Below, one piece after another: positions 6,605-46,325 of a stretch of 64,000 nt of DNA. The stretch is taken from positions 1 through 64,000 of the IMG/VR virus record IMGVR_UViG_3300012009_000091; one strand, written 5' to 3'. Both the position numbers and the translations under genes were made by a program. This DNA comes from a virus. The notes beneath the pieces were generated by a model. The model was given only the letters and a program-made list of their open reading frames with translations, was not told the origin of the DNA and searched no databases. Numbering within the stretch: position 1 is the first letter of the stretch; each line of letters begins with the position of its first letter.

Positions 6605-9172
6605 ATGTCAACCGCCATAGCTATGTATCCATCTGCCATGCGTCAAGTAGGTTTTGACGCTCCGTCTGGAATTCTCAAGATTGCTTCCAACCAGATGCTG
6701 ATTCCCCGTAATCGGGGCATTTTGAACCCAGTCGATCCGGAGCTTGAAAAGATCGCGTTGGGCACGCTCCTCAAAGGGCTTGGTAAAGGGCTTGGTAAAG
6801 GTTTAGGATCTCTAGGTAGAACAGGGGCTCGCGGTTTGGGAATGGCTGCGCGTGCGCCGGGTCGGGCGGCAGGGGCCGGGTTGCGTGGTACTGGAAAGCT
6901 TTTGCAGGGGGCGGGAAAACGCCTGACTTCCAAACCATTACTTGGGCGGTTAGGAGGATCTTTACAGCGTAGTGGGATGAAAACTGAGTTGCTCGGTCAG
7001 CAAATGGGATCCTCGACTGCTAGAGCGGGAGCCAGAGCTGCGAAAAGATGGCAACCTGGTGTTTTAGACCGTTCGGCGGAAAGTGTTCGACGGGCTGTTG
7101 GAGGCCGCGCGAGCAAGGCGATGGGGAAACAGCAGTTCAATCAACTCAACCGATTAAAGCACACGGATCCTAAGACATTCTCGCGTTTGGGGCTAGGCAC
7201 ACGCGTTCGGCACGGTATAGCTCGGCGAGGGCGGACTATGACTGATGTCGCTGATGTTCAGCGGAAAACCCGAGGTTTGGGTCAAGTCGGTGCTGATACC
7301 TCGCGCCGGTCTATGGGTCGTTTGCGAGGGCAGATCGAGCGCGTCCGGAAGTATAGTCCGCGGAAAGCACAAAGACTAGAAAGCAGACTTGGTCGAGCTC
7401 ACGAGTCCCGATTTCGAGCGCAGGCGGCGGCTGGTAAAAACCCGAGCGCCTCTCGGTTCTTTAAGGATCCGACCGGAGCTCAGATTCCGAAAACGCCTCG
7501 TCAAGCCCCGTCTTCGGGATCGGCATCGGCGGCTTATAGTCCAACTCAAACTTCCTCGGCCGCCGGTTCGGCTGCTGGACGTGGACCACGGCCTGTGAAC
7601 CGCTCTCGTCGTATTCGTACCCAACAACCGGGTCGACAGACGGGTCGGACAGTGGCGGAGCAGCACGGTCTTTCGCAGTCACAGTCGGCTCCGATCCGTA
7701 GTGCACGTCAGGGAACGCAACTAGAATGGCGGGATGCATCGGGCAAGATTCAACGCGGGTCACCGGAGAGATTTCGTGCCGACCGGGATTGGGCTAGAGG
7801 GACCGGAGCGGATCTACCGACAGCCAGTCCGGTAACTGGACCGGTAACTGGATCCCATCGCTCGTATGCACCGACTGCGGCGCAGAGAGTGCAACCTGTA
7901 GCGACTGGTGCTACTGGGGCTACTGGTGCGACTGGTACAGTCGTGAAAGGACGATTTCAACCAGGAAGAGGCTTAAGCGGACCTACCCAGCCGGTTATGG
8001 GTAAAACGACGACGACGACTCCAGTGAGTCAAACAGCTACACCGACTTCGGCCTCTTCTAGGCAAGCTCCAACTAGTGGCACTTCGGGCGCTAGTCCCAC
8101 TCAGCAGGCCCCCACTCAGCAGGCCCCCACTCGGGCCCAGCAGGCTCAAACGCAGCGGGCCCAGCGGGTTCATTCCTCGGCACAGCAGCAGCGGGCTCAA
8201 ATCCGAGCGGAACGAGCTGCCCATCGGCGGGCACAGCAACGGCAGCAGGGTCAGCAAGGTCAAACGCCGCAAGGTCAAACGCCGCAAGGTCAACAGGGTC
8301 AACAGGGGACGTCGGGTCAGCAAGGTCAGCAGGGGACGTCGGGTCAACAGGGGACGTCGGGTCAACAGGGTCAGCAAGGTCAAACGTCGCAAGGTCAACA
8401 GGGTCAAACGCCGCAAAGTCAACAGGGTCAAACGCCGCAAGGTCAACAGGGTCAACAGGGGGCGTCGGGGTCTACTGGCGAAGGCGCAGAAGGCCCTAGC
8501 TGGTTCTCTCAGCCGTTATGGGAAGGAGCGCCGGCATGGGCTACAAGAGGCATGGGTCTTGGTGCCGGCGGACTGTACTACATGACGAATAAACAAAGCA
8601 GTCAGCGCAATCACGATGGTCGTGAAGTGTTGGCATCAGTGAATCAACATACAGGACGTGTTGATATGGAAAAGAAAGCATTGAATCTTCGTGGATTGGC
8701 CGCTCCGGCCGCTGCTGGTTTGGGGGGAGCTGGACTGGGCGCGTTGTTGGCAAGTCGGGTCCAATCCGATCGGTATGAGCCGTCTCGTATGCCAATGGGC
8801 GCGGGTGCGGTTTATGGACCTCGATACGCCTTGGAAGAGTTCGTTGATGAAGCGGAGGAAGCCGAGAACGAAGCCGCCTTGCAAGAGGCTTTAGCAGAAC
8901 TTCAAGGGAGTGGCGCTGTGTATGATCCCTACGATGAAATGGTCTACAAAGGAGCCAGTGATCGTGGGCGCCAGCGCGCGCGCGTTTTTACTGATGAATT
9001 GTCCAAGCTCGCCTCGGCGGCGTTGGATACGCTGGTTGAGAGTGAGTTGATTTCCCCACAGGTGGCTGCAGAATTCGGGCAGAGTCATGACGTTAGCAAG
9101 TTGGCCAACGTATTTTATGCGTTTGGGACTGCCGCCGCTGCCGCCGACGCTGCCGCGGAGGACCCTACGTAA
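6605..9172 (+). CDS. Gly/Gln-repeat virion protein, 855 aa
   Basis: Begins at the base after the previous stop. Three regions are visible. Residues 1-330 are very basic and Gly/Arg/Ala rich, with LGKGLGKGLG repeats. Residues 330-545 are a Ser/Thr/Pro/Gln/Ala-rich disordered stretch. Residues about 549-622 are a tandem array of GQQ, GQTPQ and GTS units encoded by near-identical 9- and 15-base repeats. After the array come two Gly/Ala-rich hydrophobic segments (about 650 and 705) that could insert in a membrane, and an acidic Ala-rich tail. KIA/KLA motifs recur at both ends. No known family. The composition would suit a DNA- or membrane-interacting internal virion protein, but that is speculation. 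Confidence 0.75.
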   Translation: MSTAIAMYPSAMRQVGFDAPSGILKIASNQMLIPRNRGILNPVDPELEKIALGTLLKGLGKGLGKGLGSLGRTGARGLGMAARAPGRAAGAGLRGTGKLLQGAGKRLTSKPLLGRLGGSLQRSGMKTELLGQQMGSSTARAGARAAKRWQPGVLDRSAESVRRAVGGRASKAMGKQQFNQLNRLKHTDPKTFSRLGLGTRVRHGIARRGRTMTDVADVQRKTRGLGQVGADTSRRSMGRLRGQIERVRKYSPRKAQRLESRLGRAHESRFRAQAAAGKNPSASRFFKDPTGAQIPKTPRQAPSSGSASAAYSPTQTSSAAGSAAGRGPRPVNRSRRIRTQQPGRQTGRTVAEQHGLSQSQSAPIRSARQGTQLEWRDASGKIQRGSPERFRADRDWARGTGADLPTASPVTGPVTGSHRSYAPTAAQRVQPVATGATGATGATGTVVKGRFQPGRGLSGPTQPVMGKTTTTTPVSQTATPTSASSRQAPTSGTSGASPTQQAPTQQAPTRAQQAQTQRAQRVHSSAQQQRAQIRAERAAHRRAQQRQQGQQGQTPQGQTPQGQQGQQGTSGQQGQQGTSGQQGTSGQQGQQGQTSQGQQGQTPQSQQGQTPQGQQGQQGASGSTGEGAEGPSWFSQPLWEGAPAWATRGMGLGAGGLYYMTNKQSSQRNHDGREVLASVNQHTGRVDMEKKALNLRGLAAPAAAGLGGAGLGALLASRVQSDRYEPSRMPMGAGAVYGPRYALEEFVDEAEEAENEAALQEALAELQGSGAVYDPYDEMVYKGASDRGRQRARVFTDELSKLASAALDTLVESELISPQVAAEFGQSHDVSKLANVFYAFGTAAAAADAAAEDPT
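8249..8468 (+). repeat. Short tandem coding repeats (GQQ / GQTPQ / GTS units)
   Basis: About 220 bases built from near-perfect copies of GGTCAACAG, GGTCAAACGCCGCAA and GGGACGTCG in variable order, all in the frame of the 855-aa gene. Unit lengths are multiples of three, so copy number can change without breaking the frame. Synonymous CAA/CAG alternation shows some drift between copies. The array also creates long spurious open frames on the other frames and strand. Confidence 0.9.
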
Positions 9173-9210
9173 CCTCCGCGGAAAGCCCACCCGACGGAGG
9201 GGTTAAAGTG
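9170..9210 (+). promoter_or_regulatory. Hairpin covering the ribosome-binding site of the small gene before the sigma factor
   Basis: TAACCTCCG (9170-9178) can pair with CGGAGG-GG-TTA (9195-9205): six continuous G-C-rich pairs, then three A-T pairs across a two-base bulge. The 3' arm contains the whole GGAGG site of the GTG start at 9208. The loop is about 16 bases and no T-run follows, so it does not look like a terminator. It could hold the site closed and limit translation of the small gene and, by ATGA coupling, of the sigma factor. Confidence 0.45.
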
Positions 9211-9462
9211 GCAGCAGGTACCGCGTCATGGATTACCAACGCTCTGACTCGGGCCAGACGTGGAGCAGGACATCTTCCTGATATTTGGAGGCACGCAACC
9301 AAAGCGGGAGTACCAGCGGGTCAGCGTTGGGACGCTATCAAGAGGTACGTCCAGAGCCATCCAAGCGGGGCTGGGGATCTGGCGACGTTAGGTGCTATGG
9401 CGGTTCCTATGGGAGTCGGTACCTATGATATTGGATCGTCAGTGCTCGATCAACTAACATGA
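9208..9462 (+). CDS. Small protein upstream of sigma factor, 84 aa
   Basis: GTG start with a strong GGAGGGG site six bases upstream. The N-terminal half is amphipathic and basic (ITNALTRARRG, IKRYVQ). The C-terminal third is Gly/Ala/Met-rich and hydrophobic (DLATLGAMAVPMGVG) and could be a membrane or packing segment. The family is not recognised. It overlaps the sigma-factor gene by ATGA, so the two are likely made together. It could be a sigma partner or simply a minor virion protein; nothing in the sequence decides. Confidence 0.7.
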   Translation: MAAGTASWITNALTRARRGAGHLPDIWRHATKAGVPAGQRWDAIKRYVQSHPSGAGDLATLGAMAVPMGVGTYDIGSSVLDQLT

Positions 9463-10178
9463 CACTCAGTCGAGCAGAACGCGATATCGAGATATGGCGC
9501 GCGTGGCGTGCGGATCCTGGTCCACACACAACAGAACCACTGCTCGATTCGATTGAACCCATCGTGGAAAGTACTGTACGCAGTGTTTATGGTCGAGGTT
9601 TGACTGGCGGACGTATGCGTGTTCCGCGGGTGGTTGTGAAAGGGATGGCGAATAACCTTGCCTTAAAGCAACTCGAGACAAATTACAGTCCCGACAAATC
9701 CCAGATCAATACCTACCTGACCAACTGGTTGAGTCGAAAGTTAGCTCCCGAATTAAACACGTATCAAAATATCGTACGTATTCCACACGGGAAAGCTGAG
9801 GATATTAAACCGATTCAGCGTGTTACTAATGAGTTGGAAGAGAAGCTTCAACGGACCCCTTCTGATCAAGATATCGCTGACTACATGAAGTTGCCGGAGA
9901 AACACATACAGGCCGTTCGTCATCAAGCGTCTCAGAAGGATTACATCGCCAGTAAGGCGGAGCTCGAAACTGGATTATTCCAGACGCCGTTTCAGCGCGC
10001 GCTACGGCAGACATACATCGATTTACCGTCTCAGGATCGAGCGCTCTTTGATCTGTGGGTCAAACAAAACAAAAAGCCGGATGAGCTGATGAACTTGCTG
10101 AACGTCAATCGACGACAGTTGTCTGAAAGTCAGTCGAGAATTCGGTCTCATCTCTCCGAGAACTTGGCATTCTCATGA
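9459..10178 (+). CDS. Phage sigma-70-family RNA polymerase sigma factor
   Basis: A 239-aa protein with the order of a compact group-3 (FliA-sized) sigma. Region 2 spans about residues 24-108: YSPDKSQINTYLTNWLSRKL matches the F.P.KG..F.TY...WI pattern of region 2.3-2.4, followed by NIVRIPHG. Region 3 spans about 109-165, where EEKLQRTPSDQDIADYMKL matches the L.R.PT..EIA..L signature. A weaker region 4 spans about 186-235 (LPSQDRALFDL, then LLNVNRRQLSES). Region 1.1 is absent. It would direct a core polymerase to phage promoters. Because this phage also encodes a full core enzyme at 50236, that enzyme is the obvious candidate partner, with host core as the alternative. Starts in an ATGA overlap. 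Confidence 0.87.
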   Translation: MTLSRAERDIEIWRAWRADPGPHTTEPLLDSIEPIVESTVRSVYGRGLTGGRMRVPRVVVKGMANNLALKQLETNYSPDKSQINTYLTNWLSRKLAPELNTYQNIVRIPHGKAEDIKPIQRVTNELEEKLQRTPSDQDIADYMKLPEKHIQAVRHQASQKDYIASKAELETGLFQTPFQRALRQTYIDLPSQDRALFDLWVKQNKKPDELMNLLNVNRRQLSESQSRIRSHLSENLAFS

Positions 10179-10372
10179 CGGATGAACAAGAACAGTTGCT
10201 TACTGATTTAGAGACTGCGGCGAATGAGTACGCTGAGAGGGAAACGCTCCGACTCCAAAAACGGGCCGCCCTTCTGAGACGTCTAAACACGCGAGTTGAT
10301 GATTTTGTCAACTCGGTGGTGTCTACCCAGGCACGTCTGGTACTCTCAGATATCGACTCTTTGTTGGGGTAG
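10175..10372 (+). CDS. Small coiled-coil protein, 65 aa
   Basis: ATGA overlap with the sigma-factor stop. Nearly the whole protein is one charged amphipathic helix (LLTDLETAANEYAERETLRL, then QKRAALLRRL), so it probably forms a coiled coil. No family is recognised. Tight coupling to the sigma gene makes a sigma-associated role (for example anti-sigma or adaptor) worth considering. It also lies directly before the appendage genes, and a virion role is equally possible. Confidence 0.65.
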   Translation: MTDEQEQLLTDLETAANEYAERETLRLQKRAALLRRLNTRVDDFVNSVVSTQARLVLSDIDSLLG

Positions 10373-32796: not shown

Positions 32797-33104
32797 TGGT
32801 CCTCCACTGGAAGATAGCCTCCTCTTTTCATGGTTCTGTGCTGGAGCAGGAAGCAATGCGCCAGCACACCAAATGGACACGCAATACAATCCAGTTCACC
32901 TGGATGTTGCGCTTTGATCCGGTCCCAATGATCTTCGATCCAATCAAACATCAGGACACGGAGTTCACGTTCCGGGTCTTCACCGCCCATCCCTTCGCCG
33001 GTTTTCAGACAGCGTAGAGCCTCACGAGCGGTCGCCGCGGAGGAGATCTGCAATCCTTGCAGCCGAGCTGTGTGGATCAGATCCCGTCTGTTCAGTCGCT
33101 TCAT
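32778..33104 (-). CDS. Small protein, 108 aa, with Cys/His cluster
   Basis: ATG at 33104 has an AGGAGGACT site. The upstream end overlaps the RusA-like gene by 83 bases, and the 3' end overlaps the next start by 19 bases. It is helical at the N-terminus (RRDLIHTARLQGLQISSAAT), and near residue 80 has CIACPFGVLAHC, a Cys/His arrangement that might bind a metal. No family recognised. Confidence 0.55.
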   Translation of the reverse strand: MKRLNRRDLIHTARLQGLQISSAATAREALRCLKTGEGMGGEDPERELRVLMFDWIEDHWDRIKAQHPGELDCIACPFGVLAHCFLLQHRTMKRGGYLPVEDQWLLNK

Positions 33105-33594
33105 AGTCCTCCTGTGTAACCGGATTTTCATTCTCCGGCAAGAGTTGAATACGTACTTCGACGCGCGGGTCACTGGCGTCTTCTTTCTTGTCCAGTGTCC
33201 ATGGGAAGAAGTTGCTATCGTCGATGCCCAACAGGTCCTCGAGGCAATCTGAGAACAGCTTGATGAAGTTCTGGACATCCTCCCGTCGGTAGATGGATGT
33301 CCATTTGGCCCGACGTTTGGGTCCCGGATCTTTCTTCAGCAGGCGGGGCAGCCAAAACAAAGCCGTGACCGAATAGTGTGCGTCGATCCTTTTGAAATCG
33401 TCGGTCAACTTTAGGAGGTCAACGTTACGTGGATCTTCAAGTACGGTCTGAGTAAAGGCTGTCTCATACTTGCGTGCCTCCGACGTTTTCAGAATCGTAG
33501 CAATCTGTTTCCCGTTAATCTCTTGAATGGCCGGCTTGTAGAGCTTGTTTGAGCTCGGCGGCAATGGACAAACAAATGTGAGTTCATGATCCAC
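33022..33594 (-). CDS. RusA-like Holliday junction resolvase
   Basis: A 190-aa protein starting at GTG 33594 (weak GGAA site; no in-frame ATG). Residues 11-19 LPPSSNKLY match the PPS.N..Y opening of RusA. The core is RREDVQNFIK (103-112) followed by GIDDSN (123-128), then strand VEVRI. Against E. coli RusA (RRDLDNLQK...LDD), D106, N109, K112 and D125/D126 align with D70, N73, K76 and the DD containing D91. The residue equal to the catalytic D72 is Gln108. It would cut recombination or replication junctions. The extended C-terminus is polar and overlaps the next gene. Confidence 0.65.
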   Translation of the reverse strand: MDHELTFVCPLPPSSNKLYKPAIQEINGKQIATILKTSEARKYETAFTQTVLEDPRNVDLLKLTDDFKRIDAHYSVTALFWLPRLLKKDPGPKRRAKWTSIYRREDVQNFIKLFSDCLEDLLGIDDSNFFPWTLDKKEDASDPRVEVRIQLLPENENPVTQEDYEATEQTGSDPHSSAARIADLLRGDRS

Positions 33595-34288
33595 GGCGTA
33601 ATTTCCGTCTGTCTGCGGGGCTTATACTTCTTCTCTCGCGCCCGGGGGCCGCTCCTAGTCCAGGACTGTCGGAGTCGCGAGCCATGCGTTGTCGGTTCAA
33701 GCTCTCGACGATGTCTTTGCGACCGGACACAATGGCAGAGGCGTAGTCGTAGGTAGTGTCTCCTATCAACACTCGTTCTTCTGCCTCCTCGACTCGAGGA
33801 TCTGTTTCCGCTGCTTGTTTTCGGGCCGCGTCGGTGTACTTTTTGTCTGTTGATGGGTCGATTTCTCCCTTTAGTGTCGCCAAGATCATCTTCTTGGTCT
33901 GTTTCAGGTTGGCTCTTGCGATGTCTCGATCTGCTTGGAGATCAGCCAGTTTGTCTCGATATGCCGCCAGTTCTGCATGGAAGAATTGACTTAGACCTCG
34001 AAGAGTTTCGTCATCTAGTTTGTCTGCGTTTGCTGGCGGAACGAGGGAGAGTTCTTCTTCGGGGATATTCTCACCCAGATCGCTCAGGTAGTACTTACGG
34101 CCTTCCCACTCAACCTGGATGTGGGCTTTCAAGTACTCGGGTATGTCTGGCATGGCCAATCCCCGTAGTCGTTTACTGGCCAGAAGTGCGTGGACTCGGG
34201 CCTTGAGTTCGTCTACACCCGCGCTCGCTCTTGAAATGTCGTCGGCGAGCGGCACTTGGAATCGTCGTATTTGGAAGTTGTCGCTCAC
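33584..34288 (-). CDS. Coiled-coil protein beside recombination genes, 234 aa
   Basis: GTG start with GGAGGACG upstream, in a GTGA overlap with the nuclease gene. After an N-terminal globular part (about 1-85), residues 95-145 form a charged helix (AELAAYRDKLADLQADRDIA) continuing to Lys-rich KYTDAARKQAAETDPR. The Ser/Arg-rich tail is probably disordered. The helix-loop-helix size is roughly like recombination mediators of the UvsY kind, and the RecA-like gene is nearby, but I cannot confirm homology. Treat as an unknown with a possible mediator role. Confidence 0.5.
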   Translation of the reverse strand: MSDNFQIRRFQVPLADDISRASAGVDELKARVHALLASKRLRGLAMPDIPEYLKAHIQVEWEGRKYYLSDLGENIPEEELSLVPPANADKLDDETLRGLSQFFHAELAAYRDKLADLQADRDIARANLKQTKKMILATLKGEIDPSTDKKYTDAARKQAAETDPRVEEAEERVLIGDTTYDYASAIVSGRKDIVESLNRQRMARDSDSPGLGAAPGRERRSISPADRRKLRRGS

Positions 34289-35058: not shown

Positions 35059-35567
35059 TGGTCCTCCTTGTATGTGGCGACAAACCGTTCCCACGTTGTC
35101 AATAGAAGAAACCCTAAAGGGGTATCAAGCAGTAGGCTCTCCTCAGGTTCTAGGATGCGGACAAGTCCGCTATGGATACGGAAGCTTTTCCGTCCCTTGT
35201 TTAGCTGGAGGGGTACGAGATCTAGTGAAGGTTTTCCGCTGATCTCTTCCCAATCAGATGGCATGAGGACGGCTACCGGTTCTTGCCGTTCGACTGTGAT
35301 TCGGAAGACGGGGATCTTTCCTCCTTTAGCTTGTGCCCCGTCTTTCAGTTTTTGCCAATCGATTTTGGTCAAGTAGAAATGGCCCGTTCTATACTTGTCC
35401 TCTATCAGCAAGTCGTCACAGTAAACATCCCCAAACCATCCGCGTGCAGCCCCGCTATTAGGGGTAGTTTGCCCGTTTAGGTCGGCGGCTGCACGCTTCT
35501 CGGAATGGAGAGATCTACGCTTCCTCTCCTTCTGGGATTTCTTCCTCTTTTCCCACATTGAGCGCAT
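35055..35567 (-). CDS. Hjc-like PD-(D/E)XK nuclease, 170 aa
   Basis: Pattern of archaeal-Hjc-type and related phage resolvases: SEKRAAADLNG with Glu23, PNSGAARGWFGDVYC with Asp47, then LIEDKY with Glu56/Lys58, and a later helix ending GKIPVFRI. This is the E...GD...E-x-K catalytic layout of a Holliday-junction-type nuclease. The first ATG at 35567 (GAAGG site) overlaps the RecA-like gene by 53 bases; a later start would shorten only the basic N-terminus. Forms a cluster with the Cas4-like and RusA-like nucleases. Confidence 0.65.
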   Translation of the reverse strand: MRSMWEKRKKSQKERKRRSLHSEKRAAADLNGQTTPNSGAARGWFGDVYCDDLLIEDKYRTGHFYLTKIDWQKLKDGAQAKGGKIPVFRITVERQEPVAVLMPSDWEEISGKPSLDLVPLQLNKGRKSFRIHSGLVRILEPEESLLLDTPLGFLLLTTWERFVATYKEDQ

Positions 35568-36825
35568 TCAGTACCTTCTCACGAAGCGCGTGATCATTTC
35601 GAAGCCGTGCATCTACATGGTTCCTTTTGCCAGGGATGACGACCATCTCGTCGGTTCCTGGGACGGTCAGGTGGTACTCAGATCCTCTTCTGACCAAGAA
35701 TTTCTGTTTCACCAGCTCAGCGCGCAATGTGCCGCTCTCATCAATGGTTCCTATCGGCACGGTGAGCTCTTTTCCGTCGTAGTGATTGTGGTGATAAAAT
35801 CGGAATTCACACATCTCGCCTGTGGCGATCCCATATTTCCCTTTGTTGATGTATACGCGGTGCATATCAGACGTGGGAACGTGGGATGGGTTGCGGTCGT
35901 CTTTCGGGCCTATATATGTGCGTTCGTCCTTTTTCCCTTTCTCCACTTCAATGGTCACTGCTGAGTAGTACTGAACAGATTGACCACCACTGATTGATTT
36001 GTGGCTGACGGAATATGAAGATGTGTGAGCCATTCGAAATTGAGATACCCAGAAGAATGTCGTCTCTCGAAGTTTGTCCTCCTCTTCCATTTCTTCAAAA
36101 GGAGCCATCATGATTGCGTTCTGATTACGGTAGTGGGCGCTGAGAAGTAGTGCGCGCCCTTCGCCTCCTCTACCTTTACCAAACTCTCCAATGCCGCCTT
36201 CATCTACAGCGTCCCGTTCAGCGGCAGATGACATAGCGTCGATTGAGTTGAGAATTACGATTTGATAGATCCCGCTCTCCGCGAAGAGGCGCATGTAATC
36301 GAGTGCCGCTTCGGTCGTATCTGGCGTAACGACGTCGACTTCGCCAATCTGACACGATTTCATGGATTTCTTCTCAGCGGCCGTGAACTTTTTCTGTTCA
36401 ATCTCCTCTAGAATGTTGAGCTCTTCTGAGCTGTAGTTCACCTGCACACCGACATTGCGGGCGTGCTGCTTGTCCCATCCACCCTGTTCTAGGTAGATAA
36501 TGCCGACTGCGGATTCGTCTCCGTATCGTCTCTGGTTCTCTCGGATAGCGAGGTTCAAGAGGAGGTCTTTGCCAGAGCCTGGTTTTCCCACTAGTACAAC
36601 ATTGCATCCATGGGGGTAACCGCCGTTGGTGATCCGATCCAGTCCTATGACTCCGGTACTGCGTCTACGTAGGTAGACATTGGTGAGGTCTGATGCAGGG
36701 GTGAATACTGATCCGTCCAAATGCTTACGGGCATTTCGGATAAGTTCTTGTCGTTTTTTCCTTCTCCAGGCTAGACGGTCAGTCTTGTTGGCCTTCGATG
36801 TCTTCTTCGTTTTCTTCGTAGTCAT
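35515..36825 (-). CDS. RecA/UvsX-like recombinase ATPase with altered Walker motifs
   Basis: A 436-aa protein with a RecA-type ATPase core. It has the usual TGVIGLDRITNGGYPHG lead-in, then Walker A GKPGSGKD (80-87), YLEQGGWD, and the Walker B-like strand QIVILNSIDAM. The invariant Thr/Ser after the Walker A Lys is Asp87, and the Walker B Asp is Asn. A Gly-Arg-rich loop (GGIGEFGKGRGGEGRALLL) falls where RecA has its L1/L2 DNA loops. The C-terminal 150 residues are a beta-rich extension. It would drive strand exchange in phage recombination-dependent replication. The paired motif changes may mean modified metal binding. Confidence 0.75.
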   Translation of the reverse strand: MTTKKTKKTSKANKTDRLAWRRKKRQELIRNARKHLDGSVFTPASDLTNVYLRRRSTGVIGLDRITNGGYPHGCNVVLVGKPGSGKDLLLNLAIRENQRRYGDESAVGIIYLEQGGWDKQHARNVGVQVNYSSEELNILEEIEQKKFTAAEKKSMKSCQIGEVDVVTPDTTEAALDYMRLFAESGIYQIVILNSIDAMSSAAERDAVDEGGIGEFGKGRGGEGRALLLSAHYRNQNAIMMAPFEEMEEEDKLRETTFFWVSQFRMAHTSSYSVSHKSISGGQSVQYYSAVTIEVEKGKKDERTYIGPKDDRNPSHVPTSDMHRVYINKGKYGIATGEMCEFRFYHHNHYDGKELTVPIGTIDESGTLRAELVKQKFLVRRGSEYHLTVPGTDEMVVIPGKRNHVDARLRNDHALREKVLNALNVGKEEEIPEGEEA

Positions 36826-36964
36826 GGTCCTCCCATGGTTCTGTGCCGCATCGCGGACACCAGGTGACGGGGCCGTGGTGTTGTACTTCGGCTCCGCACG
36901 AACAGGTACCGCTTGGGGCTGCTGTCTTCTTGGTGACTTTTTGTTCTACTCCATACTTGTCCAT
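36779..36964 (-). CDS. Zinc-ribbon miniprotein, 61 aa
   Basis: Start ATG 36964 (no strong site seen; coupled to the end of the polymerase gene eight bases away). Cysteines C21-x-C23 and C36-x2-C39 make a small zinc ribbon (TCSCGAEV and WCPRCG), with a basic N-terminus and a strongly acidic tail of about 17 residues. It overlaps the RecA-like start by 47 bases. Similar small ribbons occur in phage replication and transcription accessory proteins. The acidic tail could mimic DNA or bind a basic partner. Function unknown. Confidence 0.6.
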   Translation of the reverse strand: MDKYGVEQKVTKKTAAPSGTCSCGAEVQHHGPVTWCPRCGTEPWEDHDYEENEEDIEGQQD

Positions 36965-36971
36965 GATGCAC

Positions 36972-38927
36972 CTATGGTTTTGCGTTTGCCCATTCCCTGG
37001 CCCAGCCACCGTCTGATTCAATGGGGACATCGAATGGCAGGCCTGGCCAGCCAATGGGATTATCCATAATTTGACCATAGCGTGCATCCGCTTCTTCTGC
37101 ATATTTTTCTGGACACTCAGCAGCCAGCTCGTCATGCACTTGAAGGACGGTCCGTACGCCCATTCTACGGAGTTCCTCGTCTTCTTCGATTTGAATCATC
37201 GCCAGTGTGATGAGATCGGCTGCTGTACCCTGAATCGGCGTGTTTATGGATTGCCTCTCTGCTCGAAGTCTTGAGGACCAGTTTGAATCGTAGATCCCGC
37301 CCGGACGACGCTTGCGCCCCAAAATGGTTGTGATGAATCCGTTCTGGAATACTTCTCGTTTGTACCGTTCAATACCCTCTTGGATACCTGGACGGACTTG
37401 GAAATAGAGTTCGATGAGTTGTTCGCCTTCGGTGCGTGTGGTGGCGATACCTGTCTCTTGTGAGATCTGCGAGGCGAGTTTGGCGGGCCCTACGCCATAG
37501 TTGATGCCAAAGCCTGTCCGTTTGGCTGCCGTTCGGCAGTTCACTAGGTAGTTCTGGTGCTGCGTAGGATTGTCAGCTTTCTTAGCTTCGATGATCTCCT
37601 CATAGTCGAGATTATACATCATAGAGGCAGTGAGGGCGTGTAAATCACGGCCCGCGAAGATGTCTTCGATCATCCCTTCATCACCGAATAATGCGGCGGC
37701 GATGCGCATTTCAAGACCGCTGTAATCTCGACAAAGGAGCACATGATTCTCAGGTGCAATGAATGCCCGTCGAATGCGTTTCCCTTCTTCACTTCTCGCA
37801 GGGATATTCTGTAGATTGGGACTGCTCATACGCAGACGACCACTGACTGTGGTATGTAGCAGAGAACCGTGGACTCGGCTATCCGCTTGTACTGCTTTTT
37901 GAAGACCTACAATGTACGTGGAGTGTAGCTTCTTTAGATCGCGGTATATGAGGATATCGGTTGCGACTTGGTGACCGTCGGCTTGGATGTCTTCCAGTAC
38001 TTCTCTCTTCACTGAGTAAGCGCCTTTGGCTGTTCGTATTGTTCCTTTGAGTCCGAGGTCTTCAAATAGCAGTTTGCGTATTTGTGCGTCACTGCCTGGA
38101 TTGACCGGGCTGTTGGTGGACTCGCAGATCCGTTGGGTAATTTCCACCAACCTCCGCTTCATGGGAGCGTCCTGAGATTCGAGATAGCCGACATCGACGA
38201 GTACACCTCTCTGTGCGTACTTTTGGAGTACGGTATTCAAGGGCATGTCAAACACTTGATGGAGGTCCCAGTAATTGTGCGGAGGATCGGGCAGGTATTC
38301 TTCAGGTGTATTCCATTCCTCGTCCTCAAGGATTTCCCGGAAGTACTCGTAGAGTTCCAAAGTGGCCCAGGCATCGAGAGTGGCATACTCCACCGCTCGT
38401 GGACGACGTTCTGGGTCGTCGAAGACCTCTTTGACTTTGTCTCGAACTTTCCCCCCTGGCTTGATGTCAAAGACTTTTGTGAATGCTAGTAGGTTGAGGT
38501 GAAGAATGTTTTTGGCCAAGGTTTTTAGATCGTGTCGTTCCTCTTCATCTATCAAGTGGTGCATCTTCATGGTGTCCGCGATCACATTGTTGACCTGGAT
38601 CTGGTGACGCTTCATGACTCGATAGTCGTACGGGGCGTTGTGGGCGATTTTGCTACAGTTTGTCGATTCAAACCATGGTTGAAGCAAATCGAAGAACTGG
38701 TATTGCTGTGGGTGTATGACCGGGACCACAAGACGTCGACTTCCATGCACAGGAGACCGATAGGCGAGAGCGATGAGGTAACAAACAACCGCCCACTCGA
38801 GCCCACTGGTCTCTGTGTCATAGGCCACAGGGCCGGGGGACGACATCATGTCGTCCACCAGCGCCTGTACGCCTTCAGGAGTGTCGACAATCTCCGGTTC
38901 CGGTAAGTCTAACCGGAATCGTGGCAT
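36972..38927 (-). CDS. Family A DNA polymerase with 3'-5' exonuclease
   Basis: A 651-aa replicative polymerase I type enzyme without a 5'-nuclease domain. Exonuclease: Exo I YDTETSGL (D37, E39), Exo II HNAPYD (N97, D101), Exo III YATLDAWATL (Y181, D185), so proofreading looks intact. Polymerase: motif A RDYSGLEMRI (D401), motif B RTAAKRTGFGINYG (R465, K469, F473, Y477), motif C QVHDEL (H598-D599-E600). Phe473 sits where E. coli Phe762 sets discrimination against dideoxynucleotides. A GGAGAAG site precedes the ATG. It should copy the phage genome with the helicase and primase upstream. Confidence 0.95.
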   Translation of the reverse strand: MPRFRLDLPEPEIVDTPEGVQALVDDMMSSPGPVAYDTETSGLEWAVVCYLIALAYRSPVHGSRRLVVPVIHPQQYQFFDLLQPWFESTNCSKIAHNAPYDYRVMKRHQIQVNNVIADTMKMHHLIDEEERHDLKTLAKNILHLNLLAFTKVFDIKPGGKVRDKVKEVFDDPERRPRAVEYATLDAWATLELYEYFREILEDEEWNTPEEYLPDPPHNYWDLHQVFDMPLNTVLQKYAQRGVLVDVGYLESQDAPMKRRLVEITQRICESTNSPVNPGSDAQIRKLLFEDLGLKGTIRTAKGAYSVKREVLEDIQADGHQVATDILIYRDLKKLHSTYIVGLQKAVQADSRVHGSLLHTTVSGRLRMSSPNLQNIPARSEEGKRIRRAFIAPENHVLLCRDYSGLEMRIAAALFGDEGMIEDIFAGRDLHALTASMMYNLDYEEIIEAKKADNPTQHQNYLVNCRTAAKRTGFGINYGVGPAKLASQISQETGIATTRTEGEQLIELYFQVRPGIQEGIERYKREVFQNGFITTILGRKRRPGGIYDSNWSSRLRAERQSINTPIQGTAADLITLAMIQIEEDEELRRMGVRTVLQVHDELAAECPEKYAEEADARYGQIMDNPIGWPGLPFDVPIESDGGWAREWANAKP

Positions 38928-38935
38928 GTCTTCTC

Positions 38936-40093
38936 CTACTGATTACGCCGACTACGACGGCGCTTGCTCCGAGGATCTTCCTTCGGAGCATTGTTGTTTT
39001 GTGAGTTGGTGTATTCTTTCCCGTAAGCCCTAGCGGCCGAGTCGAATGGGAATGCCATTCCTAGTTCTTTTGCTTGGTCTTCCAAGGAGAGGATGCGGAG
39101 CGAGCTAGTGAAGTCCCTGCCTTCCGCGAAAGCGTCCCAGGCTCCTTGAGGGACTTCGTAGTTCACCCAATCTTGCCAGGAGATGCGGTCGTCCCGAGTC
39201 CAGATGTAGACCGTGTCTTGTGCTTCCCCCGTCCGGTTGACCAGGGCGGGTTTCATGAAGGGAGAGCATGGGGTAGCGCCTGGGCAGGCGGTTTCTCCGT
39301 TCTCCACATGGTTGAGACAGGAATATTCCGGCTTCAGAATGTAGCCAGGGTGGTCATTTGCCACCTTGTCCTGGTTCCAGCACCCGCCTTCGTCTTCGTC
39401 TAAGCAGGGGTGTAGCTCATTCAGGATGTTGTCCCGAATCTGTTGGGCGGTTCCTTCCGCGTCCAGATCGTCAACGTCGAAGACGACGGCTCCGCATTCC
39501 GGACACACGGCCTGCTCGACGGTGCAGAGAGACAGATCCGGATTGTTCGTTTTGGCGACGCAGGTACACACGTCCTCGAGGGTGCCGACGTACTTCATGA
39601 AGTTCATCCAATGGGTGATGCCCATCCGAAAATCACGAGCGCCGCCGATGATCGCCCCGTCCGGTGCTTTGGTTCCTGTCCGTCTGGGTTGCCAGATGGT
39701 GTACCGTTCTCGGCCATTGCGACCTGTTTCGATGACGTAGTGGTTCGGGTCCCAAACGCCGAGGAAAACGTATTCTATCTCTTGGATTTGGTACTTTCGA
39801 TCGTTCCACTTGGTTCCAGCTTCCGCCTCACGGCCCGCACAGAAAACGCAGTGACCGTCGAAACCGTCAACTTCGGCGGTACATCGGAAGAGGGATCGTC
39901 CTGTCACTTTCGACTTGTGAGCGACCAGCATCTCGAGCTGCTGATTACCTTCAGCATCTTCCATGGGAATGAAGGGCGCAGTCACGCCATTCGGAACCGC
40001 GATAGGCCACTTTCGCAGGGACTGTAGTGCGTAGTCTTTGTTACGTGCTTTGCCACGGAGTGCGCTTCGTTTTCTCATCTCTGCGATACTCAT
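38936..40093 (-). CDS. Zinc-rich putative ssDNA-binding protein, 385 aa
   Basis: ATG 40093 with a GGAG site; it overlaps the primase end by 53 bases and its stop overlaps the polymerase ribosome site. Two Cys clusters, GHCVFC and CTVEQAVCPECG, plus further Cys, make zinc binding likely. Aromatic residues are scattered between them (YTIWQPRRTG, HWMNFMKYVG). Phage gp32-type ssDNA-binding proteins often carry such clusters and sit between primase and polymerase, which is the basis of the call. The C-terminus is basic (SKRRRSRRNQ) rather than acidic, which is unlike typical SSBs. An alternative is a zinc-binding primase accessory. Confidence 0.5.
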   Translation of the reverse strand: MSIAEMRKRSALRGKARNKDYALQSLRKWPIAVPNGVTAPFIPMEDAEGNQQLEMLVAHKSKVTGRSLFRCTAEVDGFDGHCVFCAGREAEAGTKWNDRKYQIQEIEYVFLGVWDPNHYVIETGRNGRERYTIWQPRRTGTKAPDGAIIGGARDFRMGITHWMNFMKYVGTLEDVCTCVAKTNNPDLSLCTVEQAVCPECGAVVFDVDDLDAEGTAQQIRDNILNELHPCLDEDEGGCWNQDKVANDHPGYILKPEYSCLNHVENGETACPGATPCSPFMKPALVNRTGEAQDTVYIWTRDDRISWQDWVNYEVPQGAWDAFAEGRDFTSSLRILSLEDQAKELGMAFPFDSAARAYGKEYTNSQNNNAPKEDPRSKRRRSRRNQ

Positions 40094-41060
40094 GTTGTTT
40101 TCTCCATTCGAGAAATGTTTGAGGTTTGCGGACTAGACGTGTGATCTCTCTGAGATCTGATACATCACTGATGTCCTTTACCTCTTTTGTTAGGACGACT
40201 TTCGGATGAGTAAACCGAAGAAGTCGCCGGCCCAATTTGTCGACAGCTTGCTGTCCCGGTTTATCATTGTCTAGAGCAATAATGAACCGACACTTAGTTC
40301 GGTAGTGCAGCCGTCTGAGGATGTCTACTTGTTGGCGGGTGAATTGAACTCCCAAAAGCCCTACTCCAACGATCCCAGCTTGATGCAGTCTCATTACTTC
40401 CTTGAACCCTTCACAGATCAGCACAGATTCTCGTGCGTTGACAGTGTACGCTCGTTGGATGTTGTAGATCAGCTGAGCCCGTTTTGGGGTGTAGTCTTCT
40501 GGAGCTAGGTTGTATAGGTCCTCCTCTCGATAGATTTTGTATTTCGGAATGACGTTCGGATATGGGGTCCTCCCTGATATGGCCATGAGTTGATTGTATT
40601 GGTTTCGGATGGGAAATGTGATTCGTCCAATGCCTGTATCGTAACCGATTTCAAAGGCGTAGAGGAGTTCTTCCGGCCATCCGTCATTCAGCATGGTCTT
40701 CGGACATTTGTGAAACAAAGCGAGGGTTTCTTCCGGAAGAATGGAGTCGGCATTCCGCTGTCCGACCGGTGTGATCTGCTTGCGTTTAGCTGGACGTCTT
40801 GGCCTTTTGGCTCCTTGTAGAAGCTGTTTGACTTGTTCCTGACTGTATCCCAAGCGGAGCAGTAAAGAATCGATCCAACCACCGCCACACCCAGACCAGC
40901 ACACCCACGTCCCCATATTGAGGCTCATTCCAAAACTGGGATTACGATCTGGATGGAGGGGACAACACGCACGTATACGCGGGTGCCCGTCACCTCCTAT
41001 GTAGTGATTAACTCTCTCCAGCTGGTCGACTACTAGTTGTACTGCAGTCTCTAAGCTCAT
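40041..41060 (-). CDS. DnaG-type primase (CHC2 zinc finger plus TOPRIM)
   Basis: A 339-aa compact primase. The N-terminus has a CHC2 zinc finger with C33-x2-H36, C54 and C58 (CPLHPDRNPSFG, then WVCWSGCGGGW). The TOPRIM core has LICEGFKEV (Glu217) and IIALDNDKPG (D264-N265-D266), which would hold the catalytic metal ions. The linker is basic (AKRPRRPAKRKQ). It lacks a helicase domain, but the DnaB-like gene ends one base upstream, so primase and helicase are made as a pair. Confidence 0.88.
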   Translation of the reverse strand: MSLETAVQLVVDQLERVNHYIGGDGHPRIRACCPLHPDRNPSFGMSLNMGTWVCWSGCGGGWIDSLLLRLGYSQEQVKQLLQGAKRPRRPAKRKQITPVGQRNADSILPEETLALFHKCPKTMLNDGWPEELLYAFEIGYDTGIGRITFPIRNQYNQLMAISGRTPYPNVIPKYKIYREEDLYNLAPEDYTPKRAQLIYNIQRAYTVNARESVLICEGFKEVMRLHQAGIVGVGLLGVQFTRQQVDILRRLHYRTKCRFIIALDNDKPGQQAVDKLGRRLLRFTHPKVVLTKEVKDISDVSDLREITRLVRKPQTFLEWRKQHEYRRDEKTKRTPWQST

Positions 41061-41061
41061 G

Positions 41062-42357
41062 TCAGTCCCTCTCGTAGAGCTTATCTTGTGGTTTTTTCCG
41101 TCGTCTTCTCCTTGGACTAGTGTCTGATGATGACTTCTGAATTCTCGGGTCGTCGTAAGGAATCTCTGCTAAATTGGTGCAGGGTTCCCACGCTGTGTAC
41201 CAGTCGTCGACGTCTGCTTCTCTGGCAGCACGTACCTCAAATTTTCGGTAGCCTTGCTTCTTATATAGTTCGACGTAGATCACGGCGTCCACTACTTGTC
41301 CGATTTGGCTGGACTCGCCGACCTCTTTCTCTGTGTTTGCTTGTGTAGAAAGGATGATCGGTATGTCTTGTTTGCGGGAGAACTTTTTCAACCGTTTGCA
41401 GATGGCGCCCAATAGATGGCGTAATTCTTTATATCCGCTGAACCCGTCCATGTAGATATATTGCATCTGATCAATCAAGACTATGTCTGGTGTCACCTCT
41501 TCGATGATCCCCTCAACAGAGTCGACGGACATGGTTGCTTCATCATCTCCGCTGTCGTAGATGATGAAGTTCTTCATTTCCGAGAATGATGTAATAACCT
41601 GCAAGAGTTTAAGTCGGTTTTGTTCTGCCGCTGGACTGTCACCGAGGAACAGTTCGCGAGTTCGAAATTCTCGGTAGGGGAACTGTCCTCGAATGGCGTG
41701 GGTACGATCGGTAAGAGTTGAAGCTCGCATTTCCGCAGGTGAGATGAGGAGTACGCGGTATCCTTTCCATGACATGTATTCTGCGATCTCGAGTAGAGCG
41801 AATGTCTTGCCTTGCTTTTTCAAACCGTAGAAGACAAAGACTTCTCCGCCGTGAATGCCGAGAGTGGCATGTTGTAGTGTTTTCCATGGAAGAGGTATGG
41901 ACGTTTCCATTGCGTCTAGAGAAATGCGGCGCTCGAACTCTGCGTCCGCATGAGATCCGACAGTATACAGAGGGGTCTTTCCAAATTTCGCACTCAAAGC
42001 ACTGAACTCACGCGCAAGTTTGCGCGCAGCCTCTTGTGGTGTGTATTGCATCAGCAAGTCTTCTGAGCGCAACTGTAGATCTCGATACCCGATTTCGGTT
42101 AGTTCGGCGGCGACGTGCTCACAGAGAATATCAATGTGCGTGTCGACATGATCTACTAGTTCAACATTAGGCAGGCTGCGCAACAGCGCCTGACGAGACG
42201 GTATTTCTCCTGTTGTTTGGTAGCAATAGGAAATGTACTCGAGTGCATCTTGTGCATCTGGATCAGTGAGTGCCTGCGGCGCGATGTGGTACGTACGTAG
42301 GGTACGAAGATCTCCTGTATCGATGACCCTGGTGATGAGGGCCATTTGATGACTCAT
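41062..42357 (-). CDS. DnaB-like replicative helicase
   Basis: A 431-aa protein. The N-terminal 150 residues are helical, in the place of the DnaB N-domain. The RecA-fold part has Walker A GLKKQGKT (178-185), strand GYRVLLISPAEM, Walker B DIVLIDQMQYI and the helicase motif IPIILSTQANTEKE. The C-terminus is Lys/Arg-rich and disordered. It would unwind the phage fork with the primase next to it. A GGAGG site five bases before the ATG is strong. It is smaller than bacterial DnaB, as in many phages. Confidence 0.85.
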   Translation of the reverse strand: MSHQMALITRVIDTGDLRTLRTYHIAPQALTDPDAQDALEYISYCYQTTGEIPSRQALLRSLPNVELVDHVDTHIDILCEHVAAELTEIGYRDLQLRSEDLLMQYTPQEAARKLAREFSALSAKFGKTPLYTVGSHADAEFERRISLDAMETSIPLPWKTLQHATLGIHGGEVFVFYGLKKQGKTFALLEIAEYMSWKGYRVLLISPAEMRASTLTDRTHAIRGQFPYREFRTRELFLGDSPAAEQNRLKLLQVITSFSEMKNFIIYDSGDDEATMSVDSVEGIIEEVTPDIVLIDQMQYIYMDGFSGYKELRHLLGAICKRLKKFSRKQDIPIILSTQANTEKEVGESSQIGQVVDAVIYVELYKKQGYRKFEVRAAREADVDDWYTAWEPCTNLAEIPYDDPRIQKSSSDTSPRRRRRKKPQDKLYERD

Positions 42358-44382: not shown

Positions 44383-45722
44383 GTGGTCCTCCTGATTTGA
44401 TATGCATAGCGAATACAGTTCCGTTCAAACCCACGAAAGGTGCGATTGAGCAGCGGAACGTCTGTGGGGTTGTAGGCGAAAACCATGGGTTGTTTCTTGT
44501 CAGGGTGCTCTCTGACGATTCTTCCTAGTCCTTGGATGAATCGCCGTGTCCCAGACCACGGCAGACAGATGTGTAGCGTGTCCAACTCCGGTTTATCGAG
44601 CCCTTCTGTTGCAATCGACGCGCTGGCGAGAATCGTGTCACATGTTGTGAGGATGTCTTGCCGTTTCTTTGCGTCCGTATCGCCGACGAGGACTTTTGAG
44701 TTCGGTATACGGTTGGACAAGAGACGCAACTGTTCGATTCGATCACTCAAGATTAATTGAAGTCGTCCGTTTTTTTGATTCTCTACAATGTAGTGGGTGA
44801 TAGCGTCGTTGATGCGGCTGGCCGCCACTTCGTTAATGGTGCGCGCACGTTCAGAATCTACACCAGCGTCGAAGGCAAAGATCCGCCGCTTCGCCAATGC
44901 GGATAATTGCGCTTCGACATCTACGATAGTGACCATCGGGTCTAGATCCGTCTCTTCACTTCGATAGATGACGCGGCCGATATGGTTCAAGAAAACTCTT
45001 TCTCGACCGGCCATCGCCACTGTTGCGCTGAGACCAACTCGAACACCGTTGCAGATTGGAAGGGCATGTCGAAATGATCGGCCTTGATAGTGGTGAACCT
45101 CATCGTAAATGGCCAATCCGAATTGCCCGCTGAGGTGTAGGCTTTTATCTCGATTGCGGGATAAAGATTGAGCCATACCGACTACCAGATCTTTTCCTTG
45201 CCAGGTCCACTTCCCTCGCTCCCCACCGATGCTCCCGATCTTCTCTTCTGGAAGCCCCATGAGTTGGACAGCCCCTTTTATCCATTGCGATTGGATAATG
45301 GCTGTGTTTACCACTACGAGTGTTGGAACTGCGTAGTGTTGCATGAGTTGATATCCAACGGCCGTCTTTCCTGTGCCTGGCGGTAACTCGATGATACCTC
45401 CTCCAGCTTCGAGGAGACAGTCAATTGCCTCGGCTTGTACGCGCTGAGCCCGCACTGATTTGGCGCCTTGTGGGCTTACGGAGCGCGTACAAGCCGCAAA
45501 GGCCACGGGGACTGGCGGATCCAGTCGATCTACTGGCAGACTGAGCTGCGCCATTGTTTCGTCTGTCAGTAACTCACGAGGTACTGCCCACACATCCCCC
45601 AGATCCCGGAATTCTTGAATGACCGTGTTGTCTGGATAAACACACGCTGCTTTGCGTTTCAAGAAGTGCGGATTGAGGGATCCTTTGGGAAAGTAGGCCC
45701 ATGACCCTTTGATGACCTTCAT
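44370..45722 (-). CDS. SF2 helicase, XPB/UvsW-like, DEVH box
   Basis: A 450-aa SF2 translocase. It has motif I PPGTGKT (114-120), motif II YDEVHH (D207-E208), motif III LSATV (231-235), and motif VI QGLGRIVREH, with a second RecA lobe (TLHICLPWSG). The family includes UvsW and XPB-type helicases, which remodel branched DNA and stalled forks. It overlaps the glycosylase start by 13 bases and is ATGA-coupled to the leader gene, so repair and fork-restart functions are made early. Its partner could be the RecA-like protein. Confidence 0.88.
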   Translation of the reverse strand: MKVIKGSWAYFPKGSLNPHFLKRKAACVYPDNTVIQEFRDLGDVWAVPRELLTDETMAQLSLPVDRLDPPVPVAFAACTRSVSPQGAKSVRAQRVQAEAIDCLLEAGGGIIELPPGTGKTAVGYQLMQHYAVPTLVVVNTAIIQSQWIKGAVQLMGLPEEKIGSIGGERGKWTWQGKDLVVGMAQSLSRNRDKSLHLSGQFGLAIYDEVHHYQGRSFRHALPICNGVRVGLSATVAMAGRERVFLNHIGRVIYRSEETDLDPMVTIVDVEAQLSALAKRRIFAFDAGVDSERARTINEVAASRINDAITHYIVENQKNGRLQLILSDRIEQLRLLSNRIPNSKVLVGDTDAKKRQDILTTCDTILASASIATEGLDKPELDTLHICLPWSGTRRFIQGLGRIVREHPDKKQPMVFAYNPTDVPLLNRTFRGFERNCIRYAYQIRRTTWKT

Positions 45723-46219
45723 TTGATGTCCTTCTTAGTGAGCCAGTCATTTGTCAGTACCATCAAGCCGACTCCGTATGCTCCGTTCAGGAGCGCTTTT
45801 GTTTTATCGGCGATCCGGGCTTCCATCGGTCGTTTGCGCTCCGCGGGTTTCGACCGGCCGGTGAACAGTGTACTACTGATGTCCAGCAGAGTCTCGCGGT
45901 TCACCATTCGCTGGACCCGCCTTCTTCTTTTCTGATACTCGAACTCTTCGGCGTCCAGTTCATCCACCTCTTCTTCTTCGTCCTCCTCGTCCTCCTCGTC
46001 CTTCGCGTCCACAAGGACGTCTCCGTATTCTTCTTCCAGTAGGGCAAGCTCTTCCTCTAACTCGCGTTCCTTTTTTCTTTTGCGCCTTCGCCTGTGTGCT
46101 AGAGTCTCTCGAACAGATCGTCGATGTCGTTTTCGGCGACGTCTCTTCTGGGGACTTTCTTCGTTTTCGTCAAGGGCATCTGTGTCGTCTCCATACTTCG
46201 ACGTGTACCAGTCATTCAT
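45719..46219 (-). CDS. Highly charged leader-gene protein, 166 aa
   Basis: First gene of the replication operon (GGAGG site ten bases before the ATG), ATGA-coupled to the helicase. The N-terminal third is acidic then very basic (QKRRRRKRHRR), the middle is an uninterrupted acidic tract of Glu/Asp (about residues 70-90), and the C-terminal 60 residues are more ordered (RIADKTKALLNGAYGVGLMV). Family unknown. Early position and acidic-basic blocks suggest an effector that binds nucleic acid or a host protein. Function is unproven. Confidence 0.65.
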   Translation of the reverse strand: MNDWYTSKYGDDTDALDENEESPQKRRRRKRHRRSVRETLAHRRRRKRKKERELEEELALLEEEYGDVLVDAKDEEDEEDEEEEVDELDAEEFEYQKRRRRVQRMVNRETLLDISSTLFTGRSKPAERKRPMEARIADKTKALLNGAYGVGLMVLTNDWLTKKDIK

Positions 46220-46325
46220 AGCGTCGTAACCTCCGGTTTAGGTGCTGCCACTTATACGGAGTGTCCACTCGTTGACGCCCCTGATTTCTCAGGGTAAGCT
46301 GGGGATCGAATAACGGAGGATAGTC
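46220..46325. promoter_or_regulatory. Divergent control region with promoter-like boxes and two inverted repeats
   Basis: 106 bases separate the two divergent operons. On + there is TTGACG (46272-46277), a 17-base spacer and TAAGCT (46295-46300), a fair -35 with a poor -10. The spacer holds the inverted repeat CCCTGA-TTTC-TCAGGG (46279-46294). Just upstream is GAGTG-TC-CACTC (46259-46270). On - there is a TATAAG box (46256-46251) without an obvious -35. Operators or phage-polymerase promoters are both possible. GGAGG sites for both first genes lie at its edges. Confidence 0.5.

Follow-up and report, generated by a model that had tools for sequence, protein, structure and literature searches.

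The viral DNA analysed here, a window of 64,000 nucleotides (positions 1 to 64,000 of the IMG/VR record IMGVR_UViG_3300012009_000091), raises the question of which RNA polymerase (RNAP) a phage sigma factor serves when the same genome also encodes a core enzyme. The gene at issue (9459-10178, + strand) lies in a virus record of 167,069 bases, here termed genome G000, and encodes 239 residues from an ATG start. Searched alone against Pfam, the protein gives a single match above the cut-off, to Sigma70_r3 (27.6 bits against a cut-off of 25.3; residues 115-157), Sigma70_r4 not being among the matches of this single-sequence search, and against PHROG it weakly matches a sigma family (E 0.004). Regions 2 and 4 become visible at the sequence level because relatives were added to the profile: an 11-member family profile run against PDB sequences retrieves bacterial SigA (8h3v; E 2.1e-12, profile positions 61-223) and WhiG (6pfv; E 1e-11, profile positions 11-156). 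Across 24 family members, Pfam at E 0.01 recognizes Sigma70_r3 in 22, Sigma70_r4 in five, and Sigma70_r2 in four. As a single query the window sigma finds no relative in IMG/VR, and the sigmas of G001 and G003 match only their own contigs; the relatives were gathered with alignments and with the homologous virion protein gp10 of Salmonella phage Arash as queries. The 11-member profile finds no relative in GTDB genomes.

A structural model of the protein (AF2, 10-sequence alignment; mean pLDDT 76, pTM 0.49) places three helices (22-45, 57-74, and 83-106) in region 2 (residues 22-106; 9522-9776, +), a boundary also given by sigma2 alignments, followed by three more (113-130, 136-143, and 147-171) in region 3 (residues 113-171; 9795-9971, +), where the Pfam match lies, and four (177-188, 191-202, 207-214, and 218-238) in a region 4 with a helix-turn-helix (residues 177-238; 9987-10172, +). 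Model residues 4-105 superpose on the sigma2 domain of 5h6x (Z 8.7, rmsd 2.7, 92 aligned) and residues 173-239 on sigma4 of sigmaE (2h27; Z 9.4, rmsd 2.5, 67 aligned). All 50 fold matches listed are, by title, entries with sigma factors, some titles lacking the chain name. For a protein made up of helices alone, Z scores of 8-11 are middling. No whole-chain TM-score rises above 0.36, and the domains are arranged differently, which takes the whole-chain rmsd above 10. Of the two lines of evidence for membership in the sigma family, the sequence profile is the stronger. From profile and predicted fold together, the ORF is best described as a compact sigma-70-family protein with regions 2, 3, and 4, as a preliminary description of this DNA had proposed. 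At the end of region 2, family alignments show a TYQN motif (residues 101-104; 9759-9770, +), whose Y, Q, and N do not vary among the first 11 members; in the wider set of 24, Q103 alone reaches at least 90% conservation. In bacteria, a pair of tryptophans in region 2.3-2.4 captures the -10 element. At the alignment position that matches the first tryptophan of this pair in E. coli, the first 11 phage members have Asn, followed by Tyr-Gln-Asn; hence, the reading of the -10 element by these proteins probably differs in detail.

The core enzyme is encoded by one ORF of 2080 residues (50236-56478, +) with Pfam Rpb2 and Rpb1 domains, a fused beta-beta' polymerase that bears out the earlier claim of a full core RNAP in this genome. 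The catalytic motif NADFDGD (residues 1404-1410; 54445-54465, +) has the counterpart AADYDGD in Arash, and the three catalytic aspartates are therefore kept; by sequence and model the core looks intact. In bacteria, sigma region 2 binds the clamp coiled coil of beta'. The equivalent segment and expected docking site, by alignment with bacterial beta' and by fold comparison, is formed by residues 1197-1241 (53824-53958, +), with predicted helices at 1197-1218 and 1223-1241 (pLDDT about 56-85), which agrees with the approximate span of 1197-1240 given at the outset. The AF2 prediction of the surrounding segment (residues 1100-1450, 34 sequences, mean pLDDT 77) matched bacterial beta' structures with a best Z of 22.4; the 50 matches listed aligned over 283-320 residues with an rmsd of 10-12 and identities of 31-37%, save for two plastid enzymes at 24-27%. 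Two features count against a sigma-core holoenzyme. The beta flap, in bacteria the binding site of sigma region 4, is shorter in the phage than in Thermus, and Pfam finds no alpha subunit in any of the five genomes searched (the control matched in 13 of 14 genomes).

The polymerase gene varies in organization among the relatives. In G003, a 121,041-base IMG/VR record, the RNAP ORF extends to 2500 residues with an insert of about 490 residues directly after NADFDGD; its LAGLIDADG-like stretches make it look like an intein in the RNAP active site. Elsewhere the polymerase is split inside beta' at about window residue 1497, as in Arash (OQ632216, 130093-141261) and Vibrio phage D69 (OZ195729, 143288-150339). 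The stretch matched by RNAP in D181 and D148 includes an annotated homing endonuclease, and the split may therefore stem from a mobile element.

If the sigma serves this enzyme, then the two genes might be expected to travel together, and co-occurrence in related phages had indeed been put forward as a check. Starting from the sigma, we found RNAP in 10 of 12 sigma-bearing records; the two others are fragments of 9.7 and 15.4 kb, and a sigma without the RNAP, looked for as the case that would speak against the pairing, was not seen in any of the 10 records of at least 57 kb. Starting from the RNAP, an alignment run against IMG/VR gave 135 relatives, of which 80 were kept and 43, namely all kept records of at least 51.9 kb, were examined for the sigma. 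It is present in 25 of these 43, a figure that depends on contig size: 16/17 at 160 kb or more, 23/27 at 100 kb or more (20/24 if G006, G009, G011, and G001, which helped to build the sigma profile, are set aside), and 2/16 below 100 kb. A wider sigma profile applied to the 18 RNAP records without a sigma added one partial match, in G046, to region 4 only. The clear exception is G016, an IMG/VR record of 170,766 bases (170.8 kb) with RNAP in which two profiles find no sigma; G021, G030, and G033, contigs that are possibly incomplete, likewise have RNAP and no sigma that we could find. All four count against the reading of the pair as a holoenzyme.

In 10 genomes the sigma and RNAP trees agree in their main groups (G000 with G001, D69 with G009, and five Arash-type genomes), though both trees carry long-branch warnings, and the pairwise identities of the two proteins correlate with r 0.98 over points that are not independent. 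These results support the view that the sigma and the fused RNAP were inherited together. Neither family profile matches anything in T4, Cobetia phage Carin-5, or a Rhizobium phage. Since the RNAPs of the latter two are more distant, the pairing is a trait of this RNAP lineage rather than of phage RNAPs at large. In Carin-5 (PV155638, 119641-126466), a small sigma gene directly adjoins separate beta and beta' genes. Profile searches place that sigma outside the family of the window sigma, and core-plus-sigma pairing may therefore have arisen more than once.

The homologue of the window sigma in Arash is a virion protein, which the earlier reader had not foreseen. Arash gp10 was recovered by tblastn of phage records (E 4e-7, 68% covered), is 20-24% identical to the window sigma, and is encoded together with a related RNAP; D69 0011, which occupies the same slot in that phage, shares 44% identity with gp10 and 27% with the window sigma. 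A large protein, a small ORF, the sigma, and another small ORF follow one another in the window, Arash, and D69 alike. In the window these neighbors, equated by order only, are a large Gln-rich protein before the sigma (6605-9172, +; Arash gp8), the small ORF directly 5' of the sigma (9208-9462, +; Arash gp9, D69 0010), and that directly 3' of the sigma (10175-10372, +; Arash gp11, D69 0012). The large protein has Gln/Gly-rich repeats and weak matches to tail-fibre PHROGs. Ahead of its RNAP, Arash has the portal gene and one small gene; the ORF directly 5' of the window RNAP (48239-50236, +), for which neither Pfam nor PHROG gives a match at E 0.01, was placed by order only.

In sucrose-gradient-purified Arash particles, gp10 was found at 100% coverage with 24 unique peptides and 467 spectra, along with the RNAP subunits gp206 (128 unique peptides, 3516 spectra) and gp216 (40 and 1210) (PMC10585845, Table 2); a second Arash sigma, gp196, is absent from the virion protein table of that paper. 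We normalized the table by length for 113 of its 116 proteins, leaving out Gp061, Gp225.1, and one printed as xxxxx; because it is short, Gp225.1, with 14 unique peptides, could rank near gp10. Ranked by unique peptides per residue, gp10 leads these 113 (10.3 per 100), with the major capsid protein 2nd, the RNA ligase gp143 4th, gp206 5th, a helicase 8th, gp216 14th, and the portal 18th, and with DNA primase and DNA ligase at the bottom. Spectra per residue are 2.00 for gp10, 2.31 for gp206, and 2.00 for gp216, but these similar amounts are a hint only because the spectra look noisy (the primase has two unique peptides and 932 spectra). The Arash authors allow such particle enzymes to be either functional cargo or carry-over, and they suggest early transcription for the virion RNAP (PMC10585845). 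The presence of metabolic enzymes in the particle list, with an RNA ligase in 4th place, counts against a packaged holoenzyme.

A search for 8-mers enriched 5' of ORFs, run with no prior motif on the window's genome, returned CGTATAAG at the top, in eight upstream regions as against 0.1-0.2 in shuffles. Over the whole of G000, GTATAAG occurs 32 times where 8-10 are expected, and GTATAAT once where 6.7 are; A is preferred at the sixth position past the last G (19/32), a preference that would fit the vicinity of a start site. Most of the GTATAAG sites (28/32) lie beyond 90 kb, and only two fall in the window: 33621-33627 (-), which precedes the ORF at 33022-33594 (-) by 26 nt and lies within the end of the preceding ORF, and 46251-46257 (-), which precedes the ORF at 45719-46219 (-) by 31 nt. 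With upstream regions taken from a simple ORF caller rather than from annotation, and with Markov shuffles that keep first-order composition only, the G(G/T)TATAAG-type motif (GTATAAG in this phage) occurs in 14/78 upstream regions in the window's genome (0.9 by shuffle; 6 on the other strand), 13/91 in Arash (1.0; 3), 16/98 in D69 (3.1; 5), and 14/56 in G003 (0.8; 3). The three control phages do not clearly show this specific motif: T4 has it in 4/93 regions (2.2 by shuffle; 4 on the other strand), Carin-5 in 6/79 (2.4; 4), and the Rhizobium phage in 1/100 (1.9; 0). With the less strict pattern (G/T)TATAA(G/A), T4 (27 versus 11.5) and Carin-5 (20 versus 7.2) show an excess too, about equally on both strands. 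Carin-5 also has more GTTATAAA than expected (15 versus 5.8), and these excesses count against a dedicated holoenzyme.

The same blind procedure returned GGTATAAG in Arash, G006, G007, G010, and G011, five closely related, non-independent genomes; GTTATAAG in D69 and, further down its list, in G009; and TGTTATAA in G003. In genomes chosen beforehand, it returned GGTATAAG in G031, G034, and G027 and, weakly, in G012, where six upstream regions have the motif as against five on the other strand and 1.8 by shuffle. The strict motif was not returned in G020 (61% GC; 1 versus 0.2), and degenerate forms, chosen for G020 and G016 after the strict motif had failed there, are in excess genome-wide: GG(N)ATAAG in G020 (20 versus about 1, four forms summed) and GGCATAAG in G016 (9 versus 0.9). 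Leaving out G001 (15 upstream regions) and G002 (8), we count the motif as enriched in 13 of the 14 sigma-bearing genomes tested, G012 weakly. The near-balance of strands in G012 and the merely degenerate form in G020 count against our reading. G016 combines GG(C/T)ATAAG sites and RNAP with the lack of a sigma detectable by two profiles. In Arash, a GGTATAAG site stands just 5' of the small gene before the sigma (11588, +), with a matching site in G010 (53092, -); this could be autoregulation or chance.

In four genomes, a -35-like TCAATA (5 of 6 bases) lies 16-17 bp from TATAAG: at 17 bp in 7/15 sites of Arash, 6/10 of G010, and 6/12 of G009, and at 16-17 bp in 17/31 of D69. No such spacing peak is seen in G000 and G003, and the lack of a -35-like element in G000 again counts against a holoenzyme. 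Promoters of the host type (TTGACA/TATAAT) are in excess in T4 (16 versus 5.6 upstream regions) and few in eight of nine sigma-bearing genomes (1-4 regions, shuffles 0.4-2.2), as they are in the Carin-5 and Rhizobium phage controls; the ninth genome, the 30% GC G003, has many (14 versus 3.0). We also considered whether GTATAAG is a generic host -10 box, which is unlikely given that the specific motif is unclear in the three controls and that GTATAAT is depleted in G000. T4 gp55 resembles the window sigma in being a compact phage sigma and has a TATAAATA-like target; it is annotated as working with the host RNAP, and the profiles of the window sigma family match nothing in T4.

As to the genes served, phage-specific promoters on late genes had been raised as a possibility; promoter-like sites do exist, but they lie mostly away from the structural genes. 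In the seven Arash-/D69-type genomes, five of which are close relatives, the strand that does not carry RNAP holds 195 of 211 G(G/T)TATAAG sites; in Arash, as annotated, RNAP shares its strand with the structural genes. A different motif, CTAAAATA, marks the structural strand in these relatives, with 48 of 55 sites on the RNAP strand, and a placement on late genes finds no support. This second motif stands 5' of structural-strand genes in Arash (137630, 139406, 142676, and 173498, all +) and its relatives, in places arranged back to back with an opposite-strand GGTATAAG. Counting k-mers 5' of 30 structural-strand ORFs in G000, with late promoters in mind, gave no clear motif. The window also encodes replication genes on the - strand (35515-42357), among them a RecA/UvsX-like protein, DNA polymerase A, and a DnaB-like helicase.

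Arash, D69, and others have a second, more ordinary sigma of the Arash gp196 type. Searches of the window's genome with Sigma70_r2, Sigma70_r3, and Arash gp196, one of them without a positive control, found no sigma beyond 9459-10178, and profile searches found no second sigma in G000, G003, G012, and G020, records that are possibly incomplete. The TATAAG motif is present in G000, G003, and G012 and, in degenerate form, in G020. CTAAAATA is in more than 3-fold excess in seven of the ten second-sigma genomes (Arash, G006, G007, G009, G010, G011, and G031), the other three being D69 (11 versus 6.1) and G027 (2 versus 1.1), both 1.8-fold, and G034 (1 versus 1.6). Where the second sigma was not found, its counts are 3 versus 1.3 in G000, which is not a clean absence, 19 versus 21.2 in G003, and 3 versus 3.1 in G012; none are expected in G016 and G020, which are uninformative. 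TATAAG is there with or without the second sigma and is therefore assigned to the virion sigma; CTAAAATA is skewed to second-sigma genomes and is therefore assigned, more loosely, to the second sigma.

Taking these findings together, we propose, with a probability of roughly two in three, that the sigma is dedicated to the fused RNAP of the phage and forms with it a virion-packaged holoenzyme for non-structural, presumably early, genes. Sigma and RNAP would be made along with the structural proteins, packaged jointly in the virion as a holoenzyme, and brought into the cell with the DNA. There, the sigma would read a -10-type element, GTATAAG in the window phage and G(G/T)TATAAG, often after T, in its relatives, several of which would add the -35-like TCAATA 16-17 bp upstream, and the phage polymerase would start the non-structural, presumably early, genes with no need of host sigma-70. 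Packaging in the window phage, binding of sigma to core, recognition of the motif, and timing are what we infer here; the earlier suggestion that the sigma may serve the phage core thus gains support, from co-inheritance and the conserved clamp coil, as far as the pairing goes, while binding is part of the inference. Sigma-bearing phages, then, probably start the reading of their genes with a transcription machine that they bring along.

One rival to this proposal has the injected sigma join the host core polymerase and turn it toward phage promoters, with a different factor serving the phage RNAP. Regions 2-4 are bacterial-like enough to make binding to a host core possible, the phage beta flap is short, and sigma homologues of jumbo phages without an RNAP are thought to act on the host core (PMC7598289). 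However, the near-constant pairing with the phage RNAP, the matching trees, the clamp coil kept in the phage enzyme, and the presence of sigma and RNAP together in the Arash particle (PMC10585845) make us regard a host partner as rather unlikely. Also unlikely is that TATAAG is read by the second phage sigma or by host sigma-70, with the virion sigma reading, for example, late promoters. The existence of the second sigma in Arash, D69, and others and the closeness of TATAA to the host -10 box lend themselves to such a view, but the motif persists in G000, G003, and G012, and in degenerate form in G020, where no second sigma was found, while the excess of CTAAAATA follows the second sigma in seven of ten genomes and is slight or lacking in G000, G003, and G012. 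Further, the last base of the motif is G, not T, which fits a changed reader, and GTATAAT is rare in G000.

The virion sigma could also be a structural or ejection protein derived from a sigma, its fold kept and its initiation function lost. Its location in the structural cassette, its abundance in the Arash particle, its strong divergence, and the Asn at the first tryptophan position of region 2 would suit such a fate. We nevertheless consider it very unlikely, as regions 2, 3, and 4 are retained, the helix-turn-helix included, and the family co-occurs with RNAP and shares a promoter-like motif.

Several parallels are offered by known phage polymerases. Arash, with gp10 and gp206/gp216 (PMC10585845), is like the window phage in having a homologous sigma, an equal gene slot, and a homologous RNAP; in Arash all three proteins are in the particle. 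The window phage differs in that its RNAP is one ORF rather than split after about residue 1497 and that its genome yielded no second sigma. The main text of the Arash paper does not use the word "promoter," and its section on the particle proteins claims no sigma-core pair (PMC10585845). The virion RNAPs of the phiKZ/AR9 type are multisubunit, packaged, and devoted to early genes (PMC7598289, PMC13282480, PMC7824862), as we propose for the window lineage, and their early motif is AT-rich and -10-like, as is the presumed early motif here. A conserved motif before presumed early genes, which serves as a criterion for the role of a phiKZ-like virion RNAP, is found in the window lineage too. Their cores, however, come in at least five beta/beta' pieces (also given as four or five), as against the single ORF of 2080 residues here, and accounts of these phages describe sigma homologues as absent (PMC13282480, PMC7824862), whereas the window lineage has a recognizable sigma-70-family protein. 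AR9 gp226 and phiKZ gp68 are, like the sigma proposed here, dedicated promoter-specificity subunits of a phage core, but they have no sequence similarity to sigma and belong to the late, non-virion enzyme. The preliminary description had called such subunits unrelated; this is too strong a word, in that gp68 is structurally like sigma (PMC13282480). The mReC lineage (PMC7481178) comprises tailed phages in IMG/VR with recognizable beta and beta', and the main text of its description uses neither "sigma" nor "promoter." TerL of G000 (67363-69078) matches PF05876 and phrog_675, not PF03237, the family looked for as a mark of mReC, a weak criterion since Pfam matches are reported for only 17/31 of the mReC TerL proteins (PMC7481178).

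According to reviews, jumbo phages with their own RNAP lack a sigma, and those without RNAP often or usually encode one (PMC7598289, PMC13282480, PMC7824862). The window lineage stands across this broad divide, with sigma and multisubunit RNAP both present and tightly linked. In the open-license literature, we found no description of a sigma-core pair in virions or of its promoter beyond the Arash listing; virion RNAP systems and sigma factors are each known, and what seems not to have been characterized so far is a single packaged viral enzyme that combines them and has promoters of its own. At its broadest, the picture is of a lineage of tailed phages that packages a bacterial-type holoenzyme (a fused or two-piece core with its own sigma-70-family factor), uses a lineage-wide TATAAG-type -10 code, in some members with a -35 element at canonical spacing, and starts infection without the host transcription machinery, part of the lineage having added a second sigma for structural genes in a two-sigma program. 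We hold the odds on this whole to be about even. With sigma and core so linked, the lineage would amount to a viral core-plus-sigma system complete in itself, offer a naturally minimal case of a sigma working with a core for which no alpha was found, and serve as a source of orthogonal promoters; with a cultured relative, Arash, and a written motif at hand, the idea is directly testable.
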